Source: a virus
DNA: 28,754 nucleotides
Reading direction: 5' to 3' (one strand)
IMG/VR virus record: IMGVR_UViG_3300044846_002405
Coordinates: 1-28,754 of that record
A program made the translations under genes and the position numbers. The notes under the pieces are model-generated. The model did not search any database. It was not told where the DNA came from and was given only the letters and a program-made list of their open reading frames with translations. Positions 15,158 through 23,807 of this stretch are shown here, piece after piece (positions within the stretch are counted from its first letter, which is position 1; each line of letters opens with the position of its first letter).

Positions 15158-16123
15158 TTATTTAATTTTCCCCATTTTAAAATCCAAGCTAGGCCCGTAA
15201 CCACCCTCTGCATCTAATGGAATATCTGGCATCCAAGCAGGGGGTATTCGTAACTGTTCAATCACAAAACGTAATACTGAATCAGCCTCATTTTCAGGGG
15301 CTAATAGATACACTGCGTCATGGATCGTAAGCAGGATACGATGTTTCTTTTCAATGCGTAGCATGGCTTCTGCAATAATACATCTGGCCATTGCTTGTGT
15401 CAGGCCTTGAAATACTTTGCTGCCATACAGTTTATCACGTTCGCGTCTATTTTTCAGAACCGACCATTCCATGCGTGGGCCTTTAGTAGTTTGAACTGCT
15501 GTTTGCTTTAAGTCTGGGTACCGCATATGCAGACCCGATGGCAACATCGCGCCTTCTGACCCATATATTTCAATGATATTGTCCCGTCCCATCCGCATAT
15601 ACTGATTATCACGTACTGCGTACAGTACCTGTTCACCTTGCTCCCATGTGTTTACTACGTGGGTGTACTCGTTTCGATATAGATTAACCATACGTTTAGC
15701 TTCCGCTTCACCTATATCAATTCCGCTCATTTGTTTAGTCTGTTGCCGTAATTTTTTGTGTCCTGTCCCGTAAATTAGTGACAATTGGGCTGTTTTTCCC
15801 ATAAATCGCTGTGTGTCATTAATCTCGTCATAGGGTACGTTATAAACAGTAGATGCAAAGTCTTTGTACAAATCAACACCCCGCCCCAGCGCTGCTACCT
15901 TATCCATCTGGCCTCCAAATGCTAGGCCTAACCGTAATTCGATAGCTGATAAGTCAGCACCTACAATCACATAACCTTCAGGAGCGATAATTGCGCTTTT
16001 CAGTTTAGACTTGCGAGGAAGATTTTGTAGATTTACGCGATCACAGTTGTGTATAAGTTTGCCATTTGCCACATACCTATGCCTAGGCCCACAGTTTTTA
16101 ATGTCATATACTGGTTCTAGCAT
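15158..16123 (-). CDS. polA: DNA polymerase family A, C-terminal fragment preceded by C-intein
   Basis: 321 residues. The first 26 are the C-terminal intein half (VYDIKNCGPRHRY...LIHN); Cys27 is the +1 extein residue. The extein then reads DRVNLQNLPR, the conserved NLQN motif of family A. Motif A is GADLSAIELR with Asp57; motif B is R106-F-M-G-K110-T-A-Q-L114-S-L-I-Y118-G; motif C is TIHDAVY with His268 and Asp269. Leu114 stands where E. coli Pol I has Phe762, and Ala follows the motif C Asp in place of the usual Glu. It has its own strong Shine-Dalgarno inside the end of the HNH gene, which it overlaps by 20 bases. It needs trans-splicing with the N fragment to make an active polymerase. Confidence 0.9.
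   Translation of the reverse strand: MLEPVYDIKNCGPRHRYVANGKLIHNCDRVNLQNLPRKSKLKSAIIAPEGYVIVGADLSAIELRLGLAFGGQMDKVAALGRGVDLYKDFASTVYNVPYDEINDTQRFMGKTAQLSLIYGTGHKKLRQQTKQMSGIDIGEAEAKRMVNLYRNEYTHVVNTWEQGEQVLYAVRDNQYMRMGRDNIIEIYGSEGAMLPSGLHMRYPDLKQTAVQTTKGPRMEWSVLKNRRERDKLYGSKVFQGLTQAMARCIIAEAMLRIEKKHRILLTIHDAVYLLAPENEADSVLRFVIEQLRIPPAWMPDIPLDAEGGYGPSLDFKMGKIK
16046..16123 (-). other. C-terminal split-intein segment (IntC, 26 residues)
   Basis: Translation begins MLEP and continues VYDIKNCGPRHRYV (intein block F) and NGKLIHN (block G), ending in the catalytic His25-Asn26, followed by Cys +1 encoded at 16043-16045. Both the penultimate His and terminal Asn needed for Asn cyclisation are present. 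The segment resembles the C-terminal end of phage PolA mini-inteins. Confidence 0.9.
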
Positions 16124-16865
16124 ACTTTCTCCTATTTATAATATCTTCTTCTGACAATCCGCTTTTAAGCCATGCCCGTACGCATTCGTACGTCAAATCA
16201 GTACGTATGCTTAAAACTCTCCGTATGACTTCTCCATTAGCGGAGCGTTTGTATGCACGTTTATTTCTTGCTTGCTCTGATCTTGTAGCCCACCGCAAAT
16301 TACCGGGCTCATAATGCCTATCATTGTCTATCCTATCTATCGAATAGCTTGCATCGGGACGCACACCTATATTGTCTAGCACCCATTTAGTGGCATCTGT
16401 TGGAGAGGAAAACTTAAACTGGGTACCTCTACCTCCATAATTGTGATACCCCTCAGAGTTAGGGTTATTGCATCTTGCGCACGCACCGTTCATAACGGCG
16501 TAAACTCTCTCTACTTCTGCAAGGTCGTGAGGTGCCCAAAACTTAATTCTTATTTGTGCTTTGGCTTTGTGCCCTAATTCAGCGCGTCTTTTTAACTCTG
16601 CTAATGGAATTGCTTTAGCATTATCCATACACTTATCTGCACATTTACGGCACTGCATAGACCTATTAGATAGTAAGTCTTTTACCCTAATTCTTGATTG
16701 CGACCCGCATACGCACTGGCAATGTAGTTTATGTTTGGTTGGTACTGCTAAGCTTTCTAGCGGCGTCCACCGCGTCTTGGGTAACTGCTCCCGCAACTTT
16801 AATTCTACATTCTGCCTGCATTGCGCTATGTAGGCTTCTCTCCCCATCTTCGGTGAATATGACAT
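16104..16865 (-). CDS. HNH homing endonuclease nested between the two polymerase fragments
   Basis: 253 residues from the ATG at 16865; ATGs at 16889 and 16847 are also in frame and no ribosome site decides. Numbering from 16889, residues 57-83 form a Cys-rich zinc-ribbon-like unit (LHCQCVCGSQ ... MQCRKC). The HNH core runs from CARCNNP (137-143) through YGGRG to SIDRIDNDRHYEPGNLRWAT (183-202) and EQARNKR. A helical C-terminus (TDLTYECVRAWLKSGLSEED) could bind DNA. The gene is in a different frame from both polymerase pieces, overlapping the N fragment by about 137 bases and the C fragment by 20. It replaces the endonuclease domain normally inside an intein and probably mobilises the locus. 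Confidence 0.88.
   Translation of the reverse strand: MSYSPKMGREAYIAQCRQNVELKLREQLPKTRWTPLESLAVPTKHKLHCQCVCGSQSRIRVKDLLSNRSMQCRKCADKCMDNAKAIPLAELKRRAELGHKAKAQIRIKFWAPHDLAEVERVYAVMNGACARCNNPNSEGYHNYGGRGTQFKFSSPTDATKWVLDNIGVRPDASYSIDRIDNDRHYEPGNLRWATRSEQARNKRAYKRSANGEVIRRVLSIRTDLTYECVRAWLKSGLSEEDIINRRKYARTSI
16129..16133 (-). promoter_or_regulatory. Shine-Dalgarno for the polymerase C fragment
   Basis: AGGAG on the - strand, 5 bases before the ATG at 16123 and located inside the last codons of the HNH gene. It shows that the C fragment is initiated independently rather than by readthrough or frameshift. Confidence 0.85.
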
Positions 16866-18015
16866 GATCTTCTGTCCCCGTGATTCCATCCCATGTTATG
16901 ACTTCGGCAAAGCCATTAAATACAACACCTTCGTGCTGAACAAATGCTTCCCCATCCCAGATAAGGTCATCTAGTAACACATCAACAATGCGTTTTTCGA
17001 CAACACCATCAACTGCATCATACACAGTTAGCCGTGTATCGGCAACTACACACGCACTCCAACGACCTGTTCTGGCTCCGTAATACAACAAAGGTACAGG
17101 TAATAAGCTACTTCTGTTGGGGCGTTCAGCAATTGCGATAAACCGCTGACTGCGGGTCTCTTCAAGTGTAGATCTAGTGCCCAGCCTAGCTGCAACAATC
17201 GCTTGTACCCTAGGGTCATCATGTTCAGCTAAAGCTTTAAATCCTTCATCAGTCTTGGCAAAGGCATAAGTCTCTACGCCTTTACTATTATGCTTCATCG
17301 GAGGTTCAACACCAAACATATCAAGCACTGAAGCAAACTTCTGGTTAGACATTAAGTCTTCTTTACTGACCCCGCAGTCTATTAGCAACTGTTCTTTTTG
17401 CTGCTGTACATCTGCTAAGTGAGCTTCTAATACATCTCTATCTAATAACAGCTGCGGGTCGGTGTACATCCTAATGGTTATATCAATTAGCTTTAATTCT
17501 GCTGTTGTGAACTTAGGACGCATTGCCATAAACAGTTTATACGTCAGCTCTACGTCATTGGTGCAATACCCAGCATATGCCTCGATTTCAGCTTCAGAGA
17601 AATCAGCTCTTCGCATACCAATAGCGTTATGTACTTCGATACCTTTCTTACCTAACTCATAATACTCGGCTAATGCAGCTAAACTACCACCTACTGATAC
17701 TGCGTGTAACGCACGTGCCATACTCAGAGTACATACAATTGCCTTAGGGTGAATACCGAATCGCCAACCAAGAATAGCACCATCAAACATGGCATTGTGA
17801 GCAACAACCATACTATTAGCCCAATCAAACTGAGATAACCACTGCTTAGTAGCTTCAAAAGACCCAGTAAACCATTGGGTCTTCTCGTTATTTTTCTTTA
17901 CAGCAATACCGATAGCTTCAAAGCGAAAGTCATTTACATATGCTTCCGTAGTCATCTTAGACAACGAGTATTCTTTTGAGTAAAAAGATTCAAAGTCGAG
18001 TGTTAGAAGGTTCAT
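16729..18015 (-). CDS. polA: DNA polymerase family A, N-terminal fragment (3'-5' exonuclease, start of polymerase domain) followed by N-intein
   Basis: 428 residues from MNLLTLDFES; upstream in-frame codons lack this conserved start and would run far into the preceding gene, whereas this ATG overlaps its stop as ATGA. Exonuclease motifs: Exo I LDFES (Asp7, Glu9), Exo II VVAHNAMFDGAIL (about 93-105), Exo III YAGYCTNDVELT (about 168-179). The polymerase domain begins before LLYYGARTGRWSA, the conserved TGR-S motif, which is cut after Ala321. Residues 322-428 are the N-terminal intein half, Cys322 being intein residue 1. The C-terminal tail after about residue 410 overlaps the HNH gene. After splicing, 321 plus 295 residues would give a 616-residue polymerase of normal phage length. 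Confidence 0.9.
   Translation of the reverse strand: MNLLTLDFESFYSKEYSLSKMTTEAYVNDFRFEAIGIAVKKNNEKTQWFTGSFEATKQWLSQFDWANSMVVAHNAMFDGAILGWRFGIHPKAIVCTLSMARALHAVSVGGSLAALAEYYELGKKGIEVHNAIGMRRADFSEAEIEAYAGYCTNDVELTYKLFMAMRPKFTTAELKLIDITIRMYTDPQLLLDRDVLEAHLADVQQQKEQLLIDCGVSKEDLMSNQKFASVLDMFGVEPPMKHNSKGVETYAFAKTDEGFKALAEHDDPRVQAIVAARLGTRSTLEETRSQRFIAIAERPNRSSLLPVPLLYYGARTGRWSACVVADTRLTVYDAVDGVVEKRIVDVLLDDLIWDGEAFVQHEGVVFNGFAEVITWDGITGTEDHVIFTEDGERSLHSAMQAECRIKVAGAVTQDAVDAARKLSSTNQT
16732..17052 (-). other. N-terminal split-intein segment (IntN, 107 residues)
   Basis: It begins with Cys at 17050-17052 directly after TGRWSA. Block A is CVVADTRLTVYD; the middle has LIWDGEAFVQHEGVVFNG; block B is ITGTEDHVIFTEDG with the T-x-x-H core (Thr60, His63). 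The order and spacing match phage PolA mini-inteins. The segment stops after 107 residues with no block F or G, which are found on the separate C fragment about 600 bases downstream. Confidence 0.9.
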
Positions 18016-18260
18016 CCAAAATACCCCAAGACACGAGCTGCCCACAATGCATTTGTGGTAATATGCCCTGCAAACCAAAATCTTATAATCCTTCGCATCA
18101 CTAAGATTTGCCCAACTGCTTGGCCTATTAAGTCTTTATCCCCCTCATCAATGCAATTAGCAGACTCTCTGTAACCTAACAAACACATAACTAATATGTG
18201 TGCTGGTATAGATGGGTCGTACCTAAGAGGTATTGTTTTGAAACCATCAGTCTCTTTCAT
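18012..18260 (-). CDS. Small protein of unknown function
   Basis: 82 residues. The stop overlaps the polymerase N-fragment start as ATGA, and the start overlaps the upstream gene by 14 bases, so it is part of the translated operon. It contains CLLGYRESANCIDEGDKDLI and a hydrophobic, Arg-rich C-terminus (MRRIIRFWFAGHITTNALWA). No family was recognised. Confidence 0.6.
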   Translation of the reverse strand: MKETDGFKTIPLRYDPSIPAHILVMCLLGYRESANCIDEGDKDLIGQAVGQILVMRRIIRFWFAGHITTNALWAARVLGYFG

Positions 18261-18912: not shown

Positions 18913-19491
18913 TCATAAGATAGAGGCATCGGGTTCACCAAAAATAATTGGCGCAATCTCTTGCAATTGTCTTTCAATCTCTGCTGCTACATCACGCACT
19001 TCTTTCTGCGCGTGTTTAGTGTTGCGAAGTTCAATAAAATCTTTCCATGCTTGGTAGTTACCAGCTACATATAGTTCAGTTGCTTGTGCTTGGGGTAACC
19101 AGAACCGTGCATCTTGTTTAGACATTCCGGAACCGCGCAATTCGTTGTACAGCTCTCTGGCTTCTTGTTCAAACAAAATAATAGAGTCTTTCGTATCACT
19201 ATTTAATTTATCAAACCCCGGCGGTCTTATGAATTCCGCATCAGATTCATCGCAATAGCGACTAGACCGTACAAGATAATCAAGATGCTTACTACGAGTA
19301 AGTTGAGCGAGGCATACTCTACTAATGCCTTCAACTTTAAATACGACATGACCAAACCGTAAAACACTAAGATGTCCGACACTAATAATATGAGCCAATC
19401 GAGTATCATCATTCCCTTCTCTCCCGTAGCATATTCCTGAATATTTCCCTATCAACATAGGGTCCGTATAATTTTCTAGCGTAACTTTCAT
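18913..19491 (-). CDS. thyX: Flavin-dependent thymidylate synthase ThyX
   Basis: 192 residues. It makes dTMP from dUMP using FAD, NADPH and methylene-tetrahydrofolate. Visible family features are SVGHLSVLRFGHVVFKVEGI, SRVCLAQL, the ThyX motif region at residues 66-76, SSRYCDES, and the C-terminal WKDFIELRNTKHAQKEVRD helix (LR....AQ.E.R). The ThyX motif, normally R-H-R-x7-S, reads R66-S67-K68-x7-S76. The ATG overlaps the stop of the inserted HNH gene as ATGA. A second, broken copy of the first ten codons lies at 20041-20088, upstream of that HNH gene. It supplies dTMP for phage DNA synthesis. Confidence 0.88.
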   Translation of the reverse strand: MKVTLENYTDPMLIGKYSGICYGREGNDDTRLAHIISVGHLSVLRFGHVVFKVEGISRVCLAQLTRSKHLDYLVRSSRYCDESDAEFIRPPGFDKLNSDTKDSIILFEQEARELYNELRGSGMSKQDARFWLPQAQATELYVAGNYQAWKDFIELRNTKHAQKEVRDVAAEIERQLQEIAPIIFGEPDASIL

Positions 19492-19493
19492 AA
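19481..19493 (-). repeat. Direct repeat, copy 1: functional thyX 5' end
   Basis: TTATGAAAGTTAC on the - strand, identical to 20078-20090. The similarity continues for 22 more bases with 7 differences, all but two codon-silent. Confidence 0.85.
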
Positions 19494-19985
19494 ATCATCC
19501 TCGATGTGATATTTTTTCTTGCCATCAAGATAGGCTTTGTGAGCTTCAGCAGGATCATGGTATGTGCCTAAACTTTTATTTTTGCCATCAACCCTGATCC
19601 TAGCCCACCATCTTTTTAATTGTGGGTGCCATGAAACACCGGCGTACCCAGATTTGTTGTTTTTGTTTAGCTTAGTTCTGTTTCTCCCATTTAATCTATC
19701 TGTGGCTAAACGTAAATTTGATATTCTATTATCGTCTCGGTTTCCATTTATGTGGTCTATTATGGTTTTAGGAAACTCTCCATTTACATATAGCCAAGCT
19801 AATCTATGTGCTTTATATGAAATACTATCAATACTAATTAGTCGATACCCTTCATTGTTAGTGCCTCCAGCTATTACTCCTTGTTTAGCCAAACCACTTC
19901 TGTCGTTCCTCCACACAAAAATCCCTGTATCTTGGCTATATTCAAGTAACTCTTTTAGTCTTTCATGGCTAACTTTATCTCGCAT
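19488..19985 (-). CDS. HNH endonuclease with C-terminal AP2 DNA-binding domain (homing type), inserted at the thyX start
   Basis: 165 residues. The HNH core runs from His60 (YKAHRLAWLYVNGEFPK) through IIDHINGNRDDNRISNLR (Asp77-His78, Asn81, Asn90) to the later Asn residues near 99-102. The AP2-type DNA-binding domain follows: KSGYAGVSWHPQLKRWWARI ... LGTYHDPAEAHKAY (111-154). This order is that of free-standing phage homing endonucleases. It has its own promoter and ribosome site (GTGAGG, 8 bases before ATG). The stop overlaps the thyX start, recreating the same TTATGA junction seen at the relic start upstream. No key residue is missing, so it may be active. Confidence 0.9.
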   Translation of the reverse strand: MRDKVSHERLKELLEYSQDTGIFVWRNDRSGLAKQGVIAGGTNNEGYRLISIDSISYKAHRLAWLYVNGEFPKTIIDHINGNRDDNRISNLRLATDRLNGRNRTKLNKNNKSGYAGVSWHPQLKRWWARIRVDGKNKSLGTYHDPAEAHKAYLDGKKKYHIEDDL

Positions 19986-20016
19986 AAAAATACCTCACTT
20001 CTAATTTGTTATAGGT

Positions 20017-20044
20017 ATAATACGCTTTTATTTTGTTATGTCAA
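20017..20044 (-). promoter_or_regulatory. Sigma70-type promoter of the inserted HNH gene
   Basis: TTGACA (20044-20039) and TATTAT (20022-20017) are separated by 16 bases on the - strand. The -35 box overlaps the TGA that ends the thyX relic. Transcription should start near 20010 and read the HNH gene and thyX. Confidence 0.7.
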
Positions 20045-20088
20045 CTCAAGTTAGACGGGTCTGTGTATTGTTCTAATGTAACTTTCAT
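20041..20088 (-). pseudogene. thyX: Relic of the thyX 5' end (15 codons)
   Basis: It reads MKVTLEQYTDP and then SNLS before a stop, against MKVTLENYTDP in the intact gene: 10 of 11 residues are the same, with mostly synonymous base changes. Its ATG overlaps the stop of the upstream membrane-protein gene as ATGA, the coupling thyX itself would have had before the HNH insertion. It is separated from the intact start by 597 bases. Confidence 0.85.
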
Positions 20089-20090
20089 AA
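20078..20090 (-). repeat. Direct repeat, copy 2: relic thyX 5' end
   Basis: TTATGAAAGTTAC on the - strand, identical to 19481-19493. The two copies bracket the HNH gene. Confidence 0.85.
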
Positions 20091-20360
20091 CCCTAAAAAA
20101 CTCCATTCAATTAACTTACCAACAGCCAAGCCCATCATTGTCATGATGATGAAAAACATCGCAGTAACTCTACCTCGTAGGTGTACAACTAAGCTACGTT
20201 CCTCCCATTTCCTTTCTTGTTCTTCTTTGTACATGTCGTACATTAGTTTCTCTTGCGCTTTGTAATCATCAAGTAGCTGTTTAGCCTCTTCATACCGAAC
20301 AAACTCACCTTGCTCTGACTCTTTCATGCGCCAAAAATGTTTTGTGCTGTATCTTTGCAT
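20085..20360 (-). CDS. Small protein with coiled coil and C-terminal membrane helix
   Basis: 91 residues from the ATG at 20360, which overlaps the preceding stop as TGATG; a TTG two codons upstream is less likely. The first 60 residues are charged and helical (MKESEQGEFVRYEEAKQLLD, then EEQERKWEERS). Residues about 66-85 are hydrophobic (TAMFFIIMTMMGLAVGKLI), a single C-terminal membrane segment. This tail-anchored layout occurs in phage proteins of unknown function, including some lysis accessory proteins. The GGAGG ribosome site is well placed. It was probably the gene directly upstream of thyX before the HNH insertion. Confidence 0.7.
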   Translation of the reverse strand: MQRYSTKHFWRMKESEQGEFVRYEEAKQLLDDYKAQEKLMYDMYKEEQERKWEERSLVVHLRGRVTAMFFIIMTMMGLAVGKLIEWSFLGL

Positions 20361-20533
20361 CACCAAACCTCCGTTCCAACCGTATGTTTATTGTTTGCTT
20401 GTATCCGTCTCTTCCAACTCAGATGAGATTCTCTGTTACTTACCATCGGTACAAATTTTCTGCGATTCAATCGCGCCTCTGATAGCGCTATGCTTAATGT
20501 GCTGTTGGCTATTCTGTATTCTTTTCTAATCAT
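20360..20533 (-). CDS. Small basic protein, 57 residues
   Basis: Begins MIRKEYRIANSTLSIALSEA and ends TVGTEVW; basic and Ser/Arg/Asn-rich. The ATG overlaps the end of the upstream gene (ATGATTAG) and the stop overlaps the next ATG as TGATG, so it fills an otherwise empty 160-base gap with tight coupling at both ends. No family was recognised. The overlap pattern is the main evidence that it is real. Confidence 0.55.
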   Translation of the reverse strand: MIRKEYRIANSTLSIALSEARLNRRKFVPMVSNRESHLSWKRRIQANNKHTVGTEVW

Positions 20534-22432: not shown

Positions 22433-23007
22433 TTCTTAACCTCAATTAACACATCTTTAACTTCCATCGTACGACTAGCCTTTAACTCGTTTAGATATTC
22501 TTGTAACCATTTAATTCGATTCTCCCTATTACGAACCTCTGGGTATTTTATTAAGTCTAACGCCTCACCTAACTTAGCTATAAAATTACTTCTATCAGTA
22601 CCCCTTTTAGCCGCATACTGATTTATCTCAGCGTTACCCGATAATTCTGCCATCCTAGCGAGACTATCTTTCAAGGTATCAATCTCGCTGTATAATTTAA
22701 GCATTTCATGTTGATGGCTTCCTACCAAATCGTGGTCGTTTATTAAGTCTAATCGCGCAGCACTTAGATCACTGATGTCTTTAACCAACTTCTTTATTAA
22801 CGCATCATTGTCCCGCTCTGCTTGCTCGTAACCCTTCAGATACCCTGTTCTATATCCTTCGCTTAGTTCTTCAGGCGTGTAGTCTTTTATCTTATCCCCC
22901 TCGTCATCATAACCATGCGATTTAAGTATCAATGTGATTGCTTCATGGAACCATTCTGCTAAATGCTCAGGCACTCTACGTTCTACCCATGTATGTTCTT
23001 CGTTCAT
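22429..23007 (-). CDS. Coiled-coil protein of unknown function
   Basis: 192 residues, mostly charged helices. An N-terminal part (RRVPEHLAEWFHEAITLILK) is followed by YTPEELSEGYRTGYLKGYEQ and a long heptad-like stretch (about 85-120, LYSEIDTLKDSLARMAELS). No catalytic motif. Both ends overlap neighbours by 4 bases (ATGA), so it is part of the translated operon. Such proteins are common accessory genes in phages. Confidence 0.65.
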   Translation of the reverse strand: MNEEHTWVERRVPEHLAEWFHEAITLILKSHGYDDEGDKIKDYTPEELSEGYRTGYLKGYEQAERDNDALIKKLVKDISDLSAARLDLINDHDLVGSHQHEMLKLYSEIDTLKDSLARMAELSGNAEINQYAAKRGTDRSNFIAKLGEALDLIKYPEVRNRENRIKWLQEYLNELKASRTMEVKDVLIEVKK

Positions 23008-23807
23008 CTTATTCTCCCCGTTTCTTTAATTTGTTTCTCGGCCTCACGTCTTACTGCAATGGCTTCCTCTAACGTTTTAAACGTGCCTAAGTTGTAGTCG
23101 ATGCTCTTACACTTCATACGTGCTACGTATGTACCGTTTGGTCTAAGTTGGACGCCCTTCGGTAAACCTTTTTTAGCCACTGAGACAGCATTACTTAACT
23201 TGCCGTTATCCCTGAGTTCTTCTTCAGCCGCAACTCGGGCATCAATAGCTTTACTTAACGATTCGAATGACCCAAGGTTGTACTCGACCTTGTTAAACTT
23301 AATCTTCACCCTATAGGTTTCATGTGGCGTTTTATGCACCCCAGTTGGTAATCCGTTAGCGCCAATCACAGCAAGTCTAACGCGTCCTTTACTACGACCG
23401 TCTTCGCAGGGTTTCATCGACCACTCAGACTCAATCGTCATACGTGTTGTCTTCGGTTTGTTACGCTTAGCTATTGCCATCATTGCTTCGCGCTTGGTCT
23501 GTGCCTCCTGCGGTAGATATGCACCTTTCAGAAACGTTGATGCCATCTTATTGAAGGTTGGTTTAGCGTCACCTTGGTTCGGGTACACACCATGCTTATC
23601 AAAGTACCGCTCTGCCGCTACCAATGCCGCTACGTTATGATCTAGCATGAATTCTTCATATTCACGTTTACTGAACAACGCTGGCTGTGTGCCTGATGTA
23701 ACAACGACAGGTTCTGGCGCTCCGATACGCTTTCTAAATGCACGGAGGGTTGTATAGGGAAGCTTGAGTAACTCAGCGGCTTCCGCGTAGGTGATACGGT
23801 CAGTCAT
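23004..23807 (-). CDS. Helix-turn-helix protein with two tandem AP2 domains
   Basis: 267 residues. Residues 4-35 (ITYAEAAELLKLPYTTLRAF) look like a helix-turn-helix. Two AP2-type DNA-binding repeats follow: GLPTGVHKT...YRVKIKF...YNLGSFES (about 152-197) and GLPKGVQLR...YVARMKC...YNLGTFKT (about 213-258). Phage AP2 domains normally accompany an HNH nuclease; none is present here. It could be a transcriptional regulator of the operon or a homing endonuclease descendant that lost its nuclease. It overlaps both neighbours by 4 bases. Confidence 0.8.
   Translation of the reverse strand: MTDRITYAEAAELLKLPYTTLRAFRKRIGAPEPVVVTSGTQPALFSKREYEEFMLDHNVAALVAAERYFDKHGVYPNQGDAKPTFNKMASTFLKGAYLPQEAQTKREAMMAIAKRNKPKTTRMTIESEWSMKPCEDGRSKGRVRLAVIGANGLPTGVHKTPHETYRVKIKFNKVEYNLGSFESLSKAIDARVAAEEELRDNGKLSNAVSVAKKGLPKGVQLRPNGTYVARMKCKSIDYNLGTFKTLEEAIAVRREAEKQIKETGRIR

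Follow-up and report, generated by a model that had tools for sequence, protein, structure and literature searches.

The window, by which we mean the whole 28,754-base phage record that was analyzed, carries on its minus strand a thyX locus in which the 5' end of the gene is present twice, with an HNH endonuclease gene between the two copies. From upstream to downstream, the features of the locus are the following.

20085..20366, minus strand: small gene, the original upstream neighbor of thyX, with a membrane-like terminal segment (...GKLIEWSFLGL); its TGA overlaps the ATG of the relic.
20041..20088, minus strand: relic of the resident thyX 5' end, MKVTLEQYTDPSNLS*, homologous to resident thyX over 42 nt (20088-20047).
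20017..20044, minus strand: site resembling a promoter, TTGACA-16-TATTAT, a short way into the insert and before the HNH gene, with 11 of 12 consensus matches (sites of at least 9/12 also arise by chance in shuffles, at a mean of 3.5 per kb).
19488..19985, minus strand: HNH-AP2 endonuclease gene, 165 aa (Pfam HNH_3, E 2e-18; PHROG 99, HNH endonuclease, E 9e-64).
19440..19491, minus strand: carried, foreign thyX 5' end, nt 1-52, which completes the working gene; its ATG lies on the HNH stop.
18913..19491, minus strand: thyX, flavin-dependent thymidylate synthase, intact, 192 aa, with the carried 5' end joined to the resident body (Pfam Thy1, E 1.9e-40).

A sequence-only reading of this DNA had described two thyX 5' copies 597 bases apart, the upstream one ending early, with an HNH gene between them, and this description holds. 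The working start at 19491 (minus strand) reads MKVTLENYTDP..., and the second start, at 20088 (minus strand) and exactly 597 bases upstream, reads MKVTLEQYTDPSNLS*, a 15-codon scrap attached to the old neighbor gene. The 13-base repeat reported to open both copies is there, as TTATGAAAGTTAC, and the ATG of each copy overlaps the stop of the gene before it as ATGA, the preceding genes being the small gene (20366-20085) and the HNH gene (19985-19488), respectively. That the differences are mostly silent is true of codons 1-11, of which 5 agree, 5 have silent differences only and 1 is altered (Q7N), while codons 12-14, which adjoin the junction, are all changed. The similarity of the two copies is beyond chance, since the upstream/downstream flank similarity score of the window, 53, exceeds the maximum of 45 (99th percentile, 36) in a null of mismatched pairs from HNH loci scanned alongside. 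Alignment of the working gene shows the family-invariant N-terminal residues and the reading frame to be preserved, in keeping with the earlier proposal that the carried end keeps thyX whole.

The gene between the copies has the attributes of a free-standing HNH homing endonuclease, an HNH domain with a DNA-binding module and a position outside any intron or intein, although the AP2 match is weak (E 2e-6, 28.4 bits, under the Pfam cut-off of 33.3). An Rfam search of the window returned no RNA family and therefore no known intron family. Read downstream from the 42 nt of resident relic, the insert consists of the promoter-like site, the HNH gene and the carried thyX start. The small upstream gene has no Pfam or PHROG match.

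Two further loci in the window bear on inteins and AP2 proteins. The DNA polymerase A gene at 15158-18078 (minus strand) is split: the N-terminal part (18078-16729) closes, after GRWSA, with what resembles the start of an intein, a distinct gene for an HNH-endonuclease-like protein lies between the halves at 16889-16104 (minus strand), and the C-terminal part (16123-15158, minus strand) begins with an intein-like end (VANGKLIHNC) before DRVNLQNLPRKSK. The arrangement looks like an intein that is fractured and split, its halves separated by a free-standing endonuclease gene. Contig L001 (5414-8311), a relative of the window, has polA as one continuous frame with no intein-like insert at the window's site and an intein-like insert elsewhere, after QRFMGKT and ending VSNC|QLSLIYG. 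At 23004-23807 (minus strand) the window also encodes a protein with two AP2-like repeats, recognized by eye, and with no recognizable nuclease domain or Pfam match, which is possibly a domesticated relative of the HNH-AP2 genes.

A ThyX-based scan of IMG/VR yielded 23 related loci, and these allowed HNH-less relatives to be compared at the junction, as had been suggested. One relative, L001, has no HNH gene and shares 94.8 to 94.9% identity with the window on either side of the site (window 20746-20044 and 19494-18255); its upstream gene runs straight into thyX with the same ATGA overlap, so that the endonuclease gene is polymorphic for presence at an orthologous site. Of the 42 nt that open thyX in L001, 41 agree with the window relic and only 27 with the working start. 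Single thyX starts of the relic type occur in other HNH-less relatives as well (41/42 in L005, 40/42 in L004, 38/42 in L002), and the window's small upstream gene stands directly before thyX, with the same overlap, in L001, L002, L005, L007 and L008; it is absent from L004, and L007 and L008 combine the same empty neighborhood with other thyX starts. Between the window and L001, 23 differences fall in thyX nt 1-52 and 30 in the remaining 524 nt (Fisher p 6e-13), with a sharp switch in identity at nt 52, which is the comparison of the 5' end with the rest of the gene that the earlier reading had called for. Because the L001 start matches the relic and the differences are concentrated in nt 1-52, we read the upstream copy as the resident thyX 5' end, still coupled to its old neighbor as had been proposed, and the working 5' end as foreign, having arrived with the endonuclease. 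Foreign origin was one part of the earlier claim that the endonuclease brought its own recoded 5' end, and this part stands (27/42 to L001). The other part, recoding by selection, is not required, as the carried end is nearest to natural alleles of distant relatives (44/51 in L225, 42/51 in L224) and itself looks like a divergent natural allele. Both 5' copies without the HNH gene, an observation that would have spoken against the proposal, were seen in none of the thyX relatives.

An exact pattern search for the carried thyX peptide start in IMG/VR found no second copy, the window element thus being known from one contig, and a DNA search of the locus in INPHARED gave no match. HNH-AP2 genes are present near thyX in L010, L012, L021 and L225; no thyX relic was recognized in L010, L012 or L225. 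The leaders of three of these genes (L021:3181-3360, L010:3260-3362, L012:890-1000) share a GTGGC...GCCAC-type stem and a second stem pairing the loop with downstream sequence (TTAAGC/GCTTAA in L021, GAGCG/CGCTC in L012). Read by eye, they form a possible conserved pseudoknot with paired changes, for which Rfam held no match.

The layout of resident 5' scrap, HNH gene and divergent carried 5' end recurs in three other genes. A flank-similarity scan of HNH-AP2 loci placed L100 (62) and L088 (61) with the window (53) above the null maximum of 45, all others scoring at most 34; a second set comprised L257 (88), L258 (86) and L259 (74) together with L255 (identical to L100) and L256 (identical to L088). 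In these five contigs, L255 to L259, the target is a structural gene starting MxKNK(V/I)SE, and the overlap between HNH stop and carried start reads CATGGCTAA in each of them. In L255 through L258 the relic leads without a frame change into the HNH reading frame; the relic of L259 ends at a stop codon a little upstream of the HNH start. Compared with HNH-less contigs, the relics of L255 to L259 match at 41, 40, 42, 38 and 37 of 42 nt and the carried ends at 33, 33, 42, 34 and 37 of 42 nt, respectively, where the 42/42 of the L257 carried end is to L198 only and L259 is a tie. The carried ends of L255 and L256 agree at 41/42 nt, with relics at 37/42 and unrelated upstream sequence. In the case of L257, the start of the structural gene in HNH-less L198 (L198:426, L257:2482) would represent the allele from which the carried start came or, alternatively, one that has been cured and is possibly resistant; the L257 carried end is identical to this natural allele, and its "recoding" may only reflect origin in a divergent lineage.

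A weaker case is a small open reading frame in L021, where MRILTKKR* follows the upstream gene, as compared with MKNSTKKRFTPPH in L020, and a different, intact copy follows the HNH gene; it rests on 8 codons. Self-comparison, which detects only long relics, gave no relic at most HNH-AP2 loci, and the relic layout is one outcome among these loci rather than the rule. High self-similarity in L297 to L299 is due only to two tandem HNH genes, and that of L062 and other HNH loci falls within the null; these were set aside. Contigs L122, L125 and L126, in which the start of the MxKNK(V/I)SE structural gene is uninterrupted, carry a second and more distant HNH gene at its 3' end (about 2340-2920), a possible 3' counterpart of the 5' arrangement.

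A tblastn search of INPHARED found relatives of the window HNH in 3,474 records, and among cultured phages the layout was found at the endolysin gene, as a host-type relic fused to the HNH gene and followed by a carried start, in four Salmonella Jerseyviruses (STP03, AG11, S4lw and S111) and in the E. coli Kagunavirus BUCT825. STP03 and AG11 have MPNRNISDNGL fused to the HNH, and the endolysin after it starts MRNISNNGIKFTAAFE, a layout that S4lw shares; in LP31 and Jersey the endolysin is uninterrupted, with the empty starts MPNRNISDNGLHFTAAFE and MSNRNISDNGLHFTAAFE, respectively. In S111 the same site is occupied by an HNH gene whose body differs (54% identity), with the carried start MRSMSDNGLKFTAAWEDFRG and an MSNRN-type relic, and since the beginning of the HNH is common to both, the S111 and STP03 elements have probably recombined. 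Between STP03 and BUCT825 the HNH DNA is identical at 494 of 504 nt and the first 60 nt of the carried start at 55, falling to 45/60 and 39/60 in the next two 60-nt blocks of the endolysin. The relics and the downstream endolysin are of the respective host type, those of BUCT825 being Kagunavirus-like. As both HNH and carried start are shared while the flanks are host-type, we conclude from this comparison that the two have moved together, as a single unit, from one genus to another, and in L255 and L256 the nuclease gene and its rescue segment are likewise inherited jointly.

The STP03 locus matched 337 records, only 15 of them covering at least 80%, and in most of the 337 the endolysin site is unfilled. 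Kagunaviruses and their relatives show four endolysin states: empty (P AB-2017); occupied (BUCT825); decayed (Bas73), in which the HNH gene has a 417-nt in-frame deletion and the relic and the carried end both persist; and collapsed (Bas71), where the HNH gene is gone and the resident start is joined to carried sequence. These states fit the cycle of invasion, decay and loss expected of homing genes, and the collapsed Bas71-type allele may be resistant to cutting. Only here, as a derived state in Bas73, is the possession of both 5' copies without an intact HNH gene approached. Inspection of the HNH loci of Bas80, Pel53, PdC23 and rutana revealed no clear relic.

The annotation of STP03 (L332, KY176369.1) is shifted, such that "endolysin" denotes the HNH gene, "HNH endonuclease" a holin-like gene and "hypothetical" the real endolysin, and the HNH label has been copied onto the holin-like gene of LP31. 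The Skatevirus-type terL loci of LPST10, YX3973 and IME207 were considered as a further case and not counted, as they have no terL relic; in them the HNH gene replaces a small upstream gene, and the terL 5' end is divergent. Across Skatevirus and related terL loci (L331, L338, L340), different HNH genes (LPST10, IME207) precede nearly the same divergent terL 5' end, ATGGCTAGAAAAAGACTCTCAAGT versus ATGGCTCGTAAACGCCTCTCCGCT in empty relatives. These loci possibly follow the same strategy without a relic.

In a quick FastTree run, the relic-bearing HNH proteins (thyX, PHKC, KNK and endolysin types) fell on several separate branches, and identity between the types is 36 to 52%, which would mean either that the layout arose more than once or that targets have changed. 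The endonuclease gene probably also supplies translation initiation for the carried gene from its 3' end. HNH proteins of the structural-gene and terL groups end in ...EF(A/C)NHG*, spelled ...GGGGAGTTTGCAAATCATGGCTAR or close to it; this spelling contains a GGAG resembling a Shine-Dalgarno sequence as well as the ATG GCT with which the next gene begins, and in all 11 distinct HNHs ending in HG a long downstream frame starts at that ATG. In the window, a GAGG inside the HNH gene precedes the thyX ATG.

Taken as a whole, the explanation that we consider probable is that a free-standing HNH-AP2 homing gene inserted within thyX and brought a replacement 5' end with it. The insertion point would lie inside the thyX coding sequence, about 14 to 17 codons from the start, and the inserted unit would comprise the promoter-like site, the HNH gene and the divergent first ~17 codons of thyX. 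Joined in frame to the resident body, the carried copy would give a full thyX restarted on the HNH stop through the ATGA overlap, leaving the displaced resident 5' end upstream as a scrap on the old neighbor. As we infer the order of events, an active HNH nuclease would cut uninvaded thyX near codons 14 to 17, and donor-templated repair would copy in the HNH gene and the carried end, guided on the right side by homology in the thyX body and on the left by the upstream gene and relic homology, with end joining as the alternative when the element was first founded. Its divergence would make the carried end unfit for cutting or homology, which would let the gene survive and render the occupied allele immune. 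Such resistance of the carried segment to the element's own nuclease is suggested by the divergence near the junction and by Bas71, which keeps carried sequence after loss of the HNH gene.

A neutral origin, in which one-sided break recombination dragged the HNH gene and the neighboring thyX 5' end in from a divergent phage with no selected rescue role, strikes us as possible but rather unlikely. The resemblance of the carried end to natural alleles (L225), the identity of the L257 carried end with the HNH-less L198 allele and the HNH-AP2 genes that do adjoin the thyX region in L010, L012, L021 and L225 all sit well with a by-product of this kind, yet a compact unit of HNH gene and carried end recurs together across genera (494/504 and 55/60), several independent targets are involved, and an insertion that brought no carried end would leave its target broken.

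A tandem duplication at the locus itself, copying the thyX 5' end, with later entry of the HNH gene between the copies and drift of one of them, would also leave two copies flanking one HNH gene. We rejected it as very improbable because the conserved copy is the nonfunctional one: the upstream copy is unchanged relative to L001 and the functional copy divergent, whereas the thyX body beside that divergent copy is resident (30/524 differences), and in STP03 and BUCT825 the carried end goes with the HNH gene and not with the host body. Least credible of all, to the point of being almost negligible, is that the arrangement is an assembly chimera or that a short, unrelated leader peptide accounts for the upstream copy. 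The relic is only 15 codons long and the window is a metagenome contig, but the match of 41/42 nt is to the empty orthologous site, in the same place in the genome, the same layout occurs in independently sequenced cultured phages, and nothing was found in support of a leader peptide, which the sequence-only reading had named as a possible refutation. Insertion of a homing gene with its own replacement 5' end is thus the reading that we retain.

Free-standing homing endonucleases cannot splice out of genes and are expected mainly between genes. A unit equipped with a replacement 5' end is able to settle in conserved coding sequence instead, with its stable targets and the high cost of loss, the same logic that underlies the engineers' choice for home-and-rescue gene drives. 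Units of this kind would explain gene-start duplications, short N termini fused to HNH genes and misannotated lysis cassettes in phage genomes, and would show how the 5' ends of phage genes become mosaic. The occupied, decayed, collapsed and empty endolysin alleles in cultured E. coli phages, including Bas71 and Bas73, make both the homing cycle and the carried resistance directly testable in the laboratory.

In the open-access literature searched, we found no precedent in phages for a relic combined with carried gene ends, nor did a text search of recent papers on phage HNH or homing endonucleases turn up relics or carried ends. Intronless homing by the Seg and Mob enzymes of T4 is alike in having a free-standing endonuclease gene near its presumed target and in spreading by break repair with flank co-conversion, recipients being thought to lose the cleavable sequence (PMC2988022). 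There the cut site is distant from the insertion site (PMC2988022), whereas the elements described here insert within the gene and leave a relic and a replacement 5' end. The AP2-associated HNH (IPA-HNH) endonucleases of phages likewise combine HNH and AP2, and their genes cluster near essential phage genes; the passages of that source on duplicated, truncated, fused or recoded sequences describe no relic or carried 5' end, and the IPA-HNH domains of ICP1 are described as too divergent to be picked up by the Pfam HNH_3 profile (PMC10448857), to which the window protein gives a good match.

The closest parallel is found in fungal mitochondria, where mobile open reading frames replace the C termini of genes, as in atp6, atp9, cox2 and nad3 of Glomus sp. 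(PMC3630166) and, as cited there, in atp6 of Allomyces macrogynus. Like the phage elements, these place an endonuclease gene in coding sequence together with a foreign, largely silently substituted, in-frame gene end, and displace the native end as a remnant resembling uninvaded relatives (PMC3630166). The displaced native terminus matches uninvaded relatives in the window (41/42) and in the five structural-gene cases (37 to 42 of 42), and the carried terminus is divergent, in frame and preserves the protein (27/42 to L001). The fungal elements differ in using the 3' (C-terminal) end, LAGLIDADG or GIY-YIG enzymes and mitochondria (PMC3630166), as opposed to the 5' end of phage genes, HNH-AP2 enzymes and a gene restarted on the endonuclease stop codon. 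The window element appears to work like these fungal elements in mirror image without being a member of the group.

Engineered HomeR drives also place a homing cassette within an essential gene and restore that gene by a recoded, cleavage-resistant stretch, in a synthetic Cas9 system in insects (PMC7968924); the phage elements are natural and protein guided. In these respects HNH-AP2 elements seem to behave like natural home-and-rescue elements. On balance we lean towards the broader view that phage HNH-AP2 genes include a widespread, repeatedly evolved home-and-rescue class, one that would insert at the 5' end of thyX, endolysin, a structural gene and perhaps terminase, start a cleavage-resistant carried end on the 3' end of the endonuclease gene, move between genera as a unit and pass through a cycle of empty, occupied, decayed and lost states that leaves resistant alleles behind.
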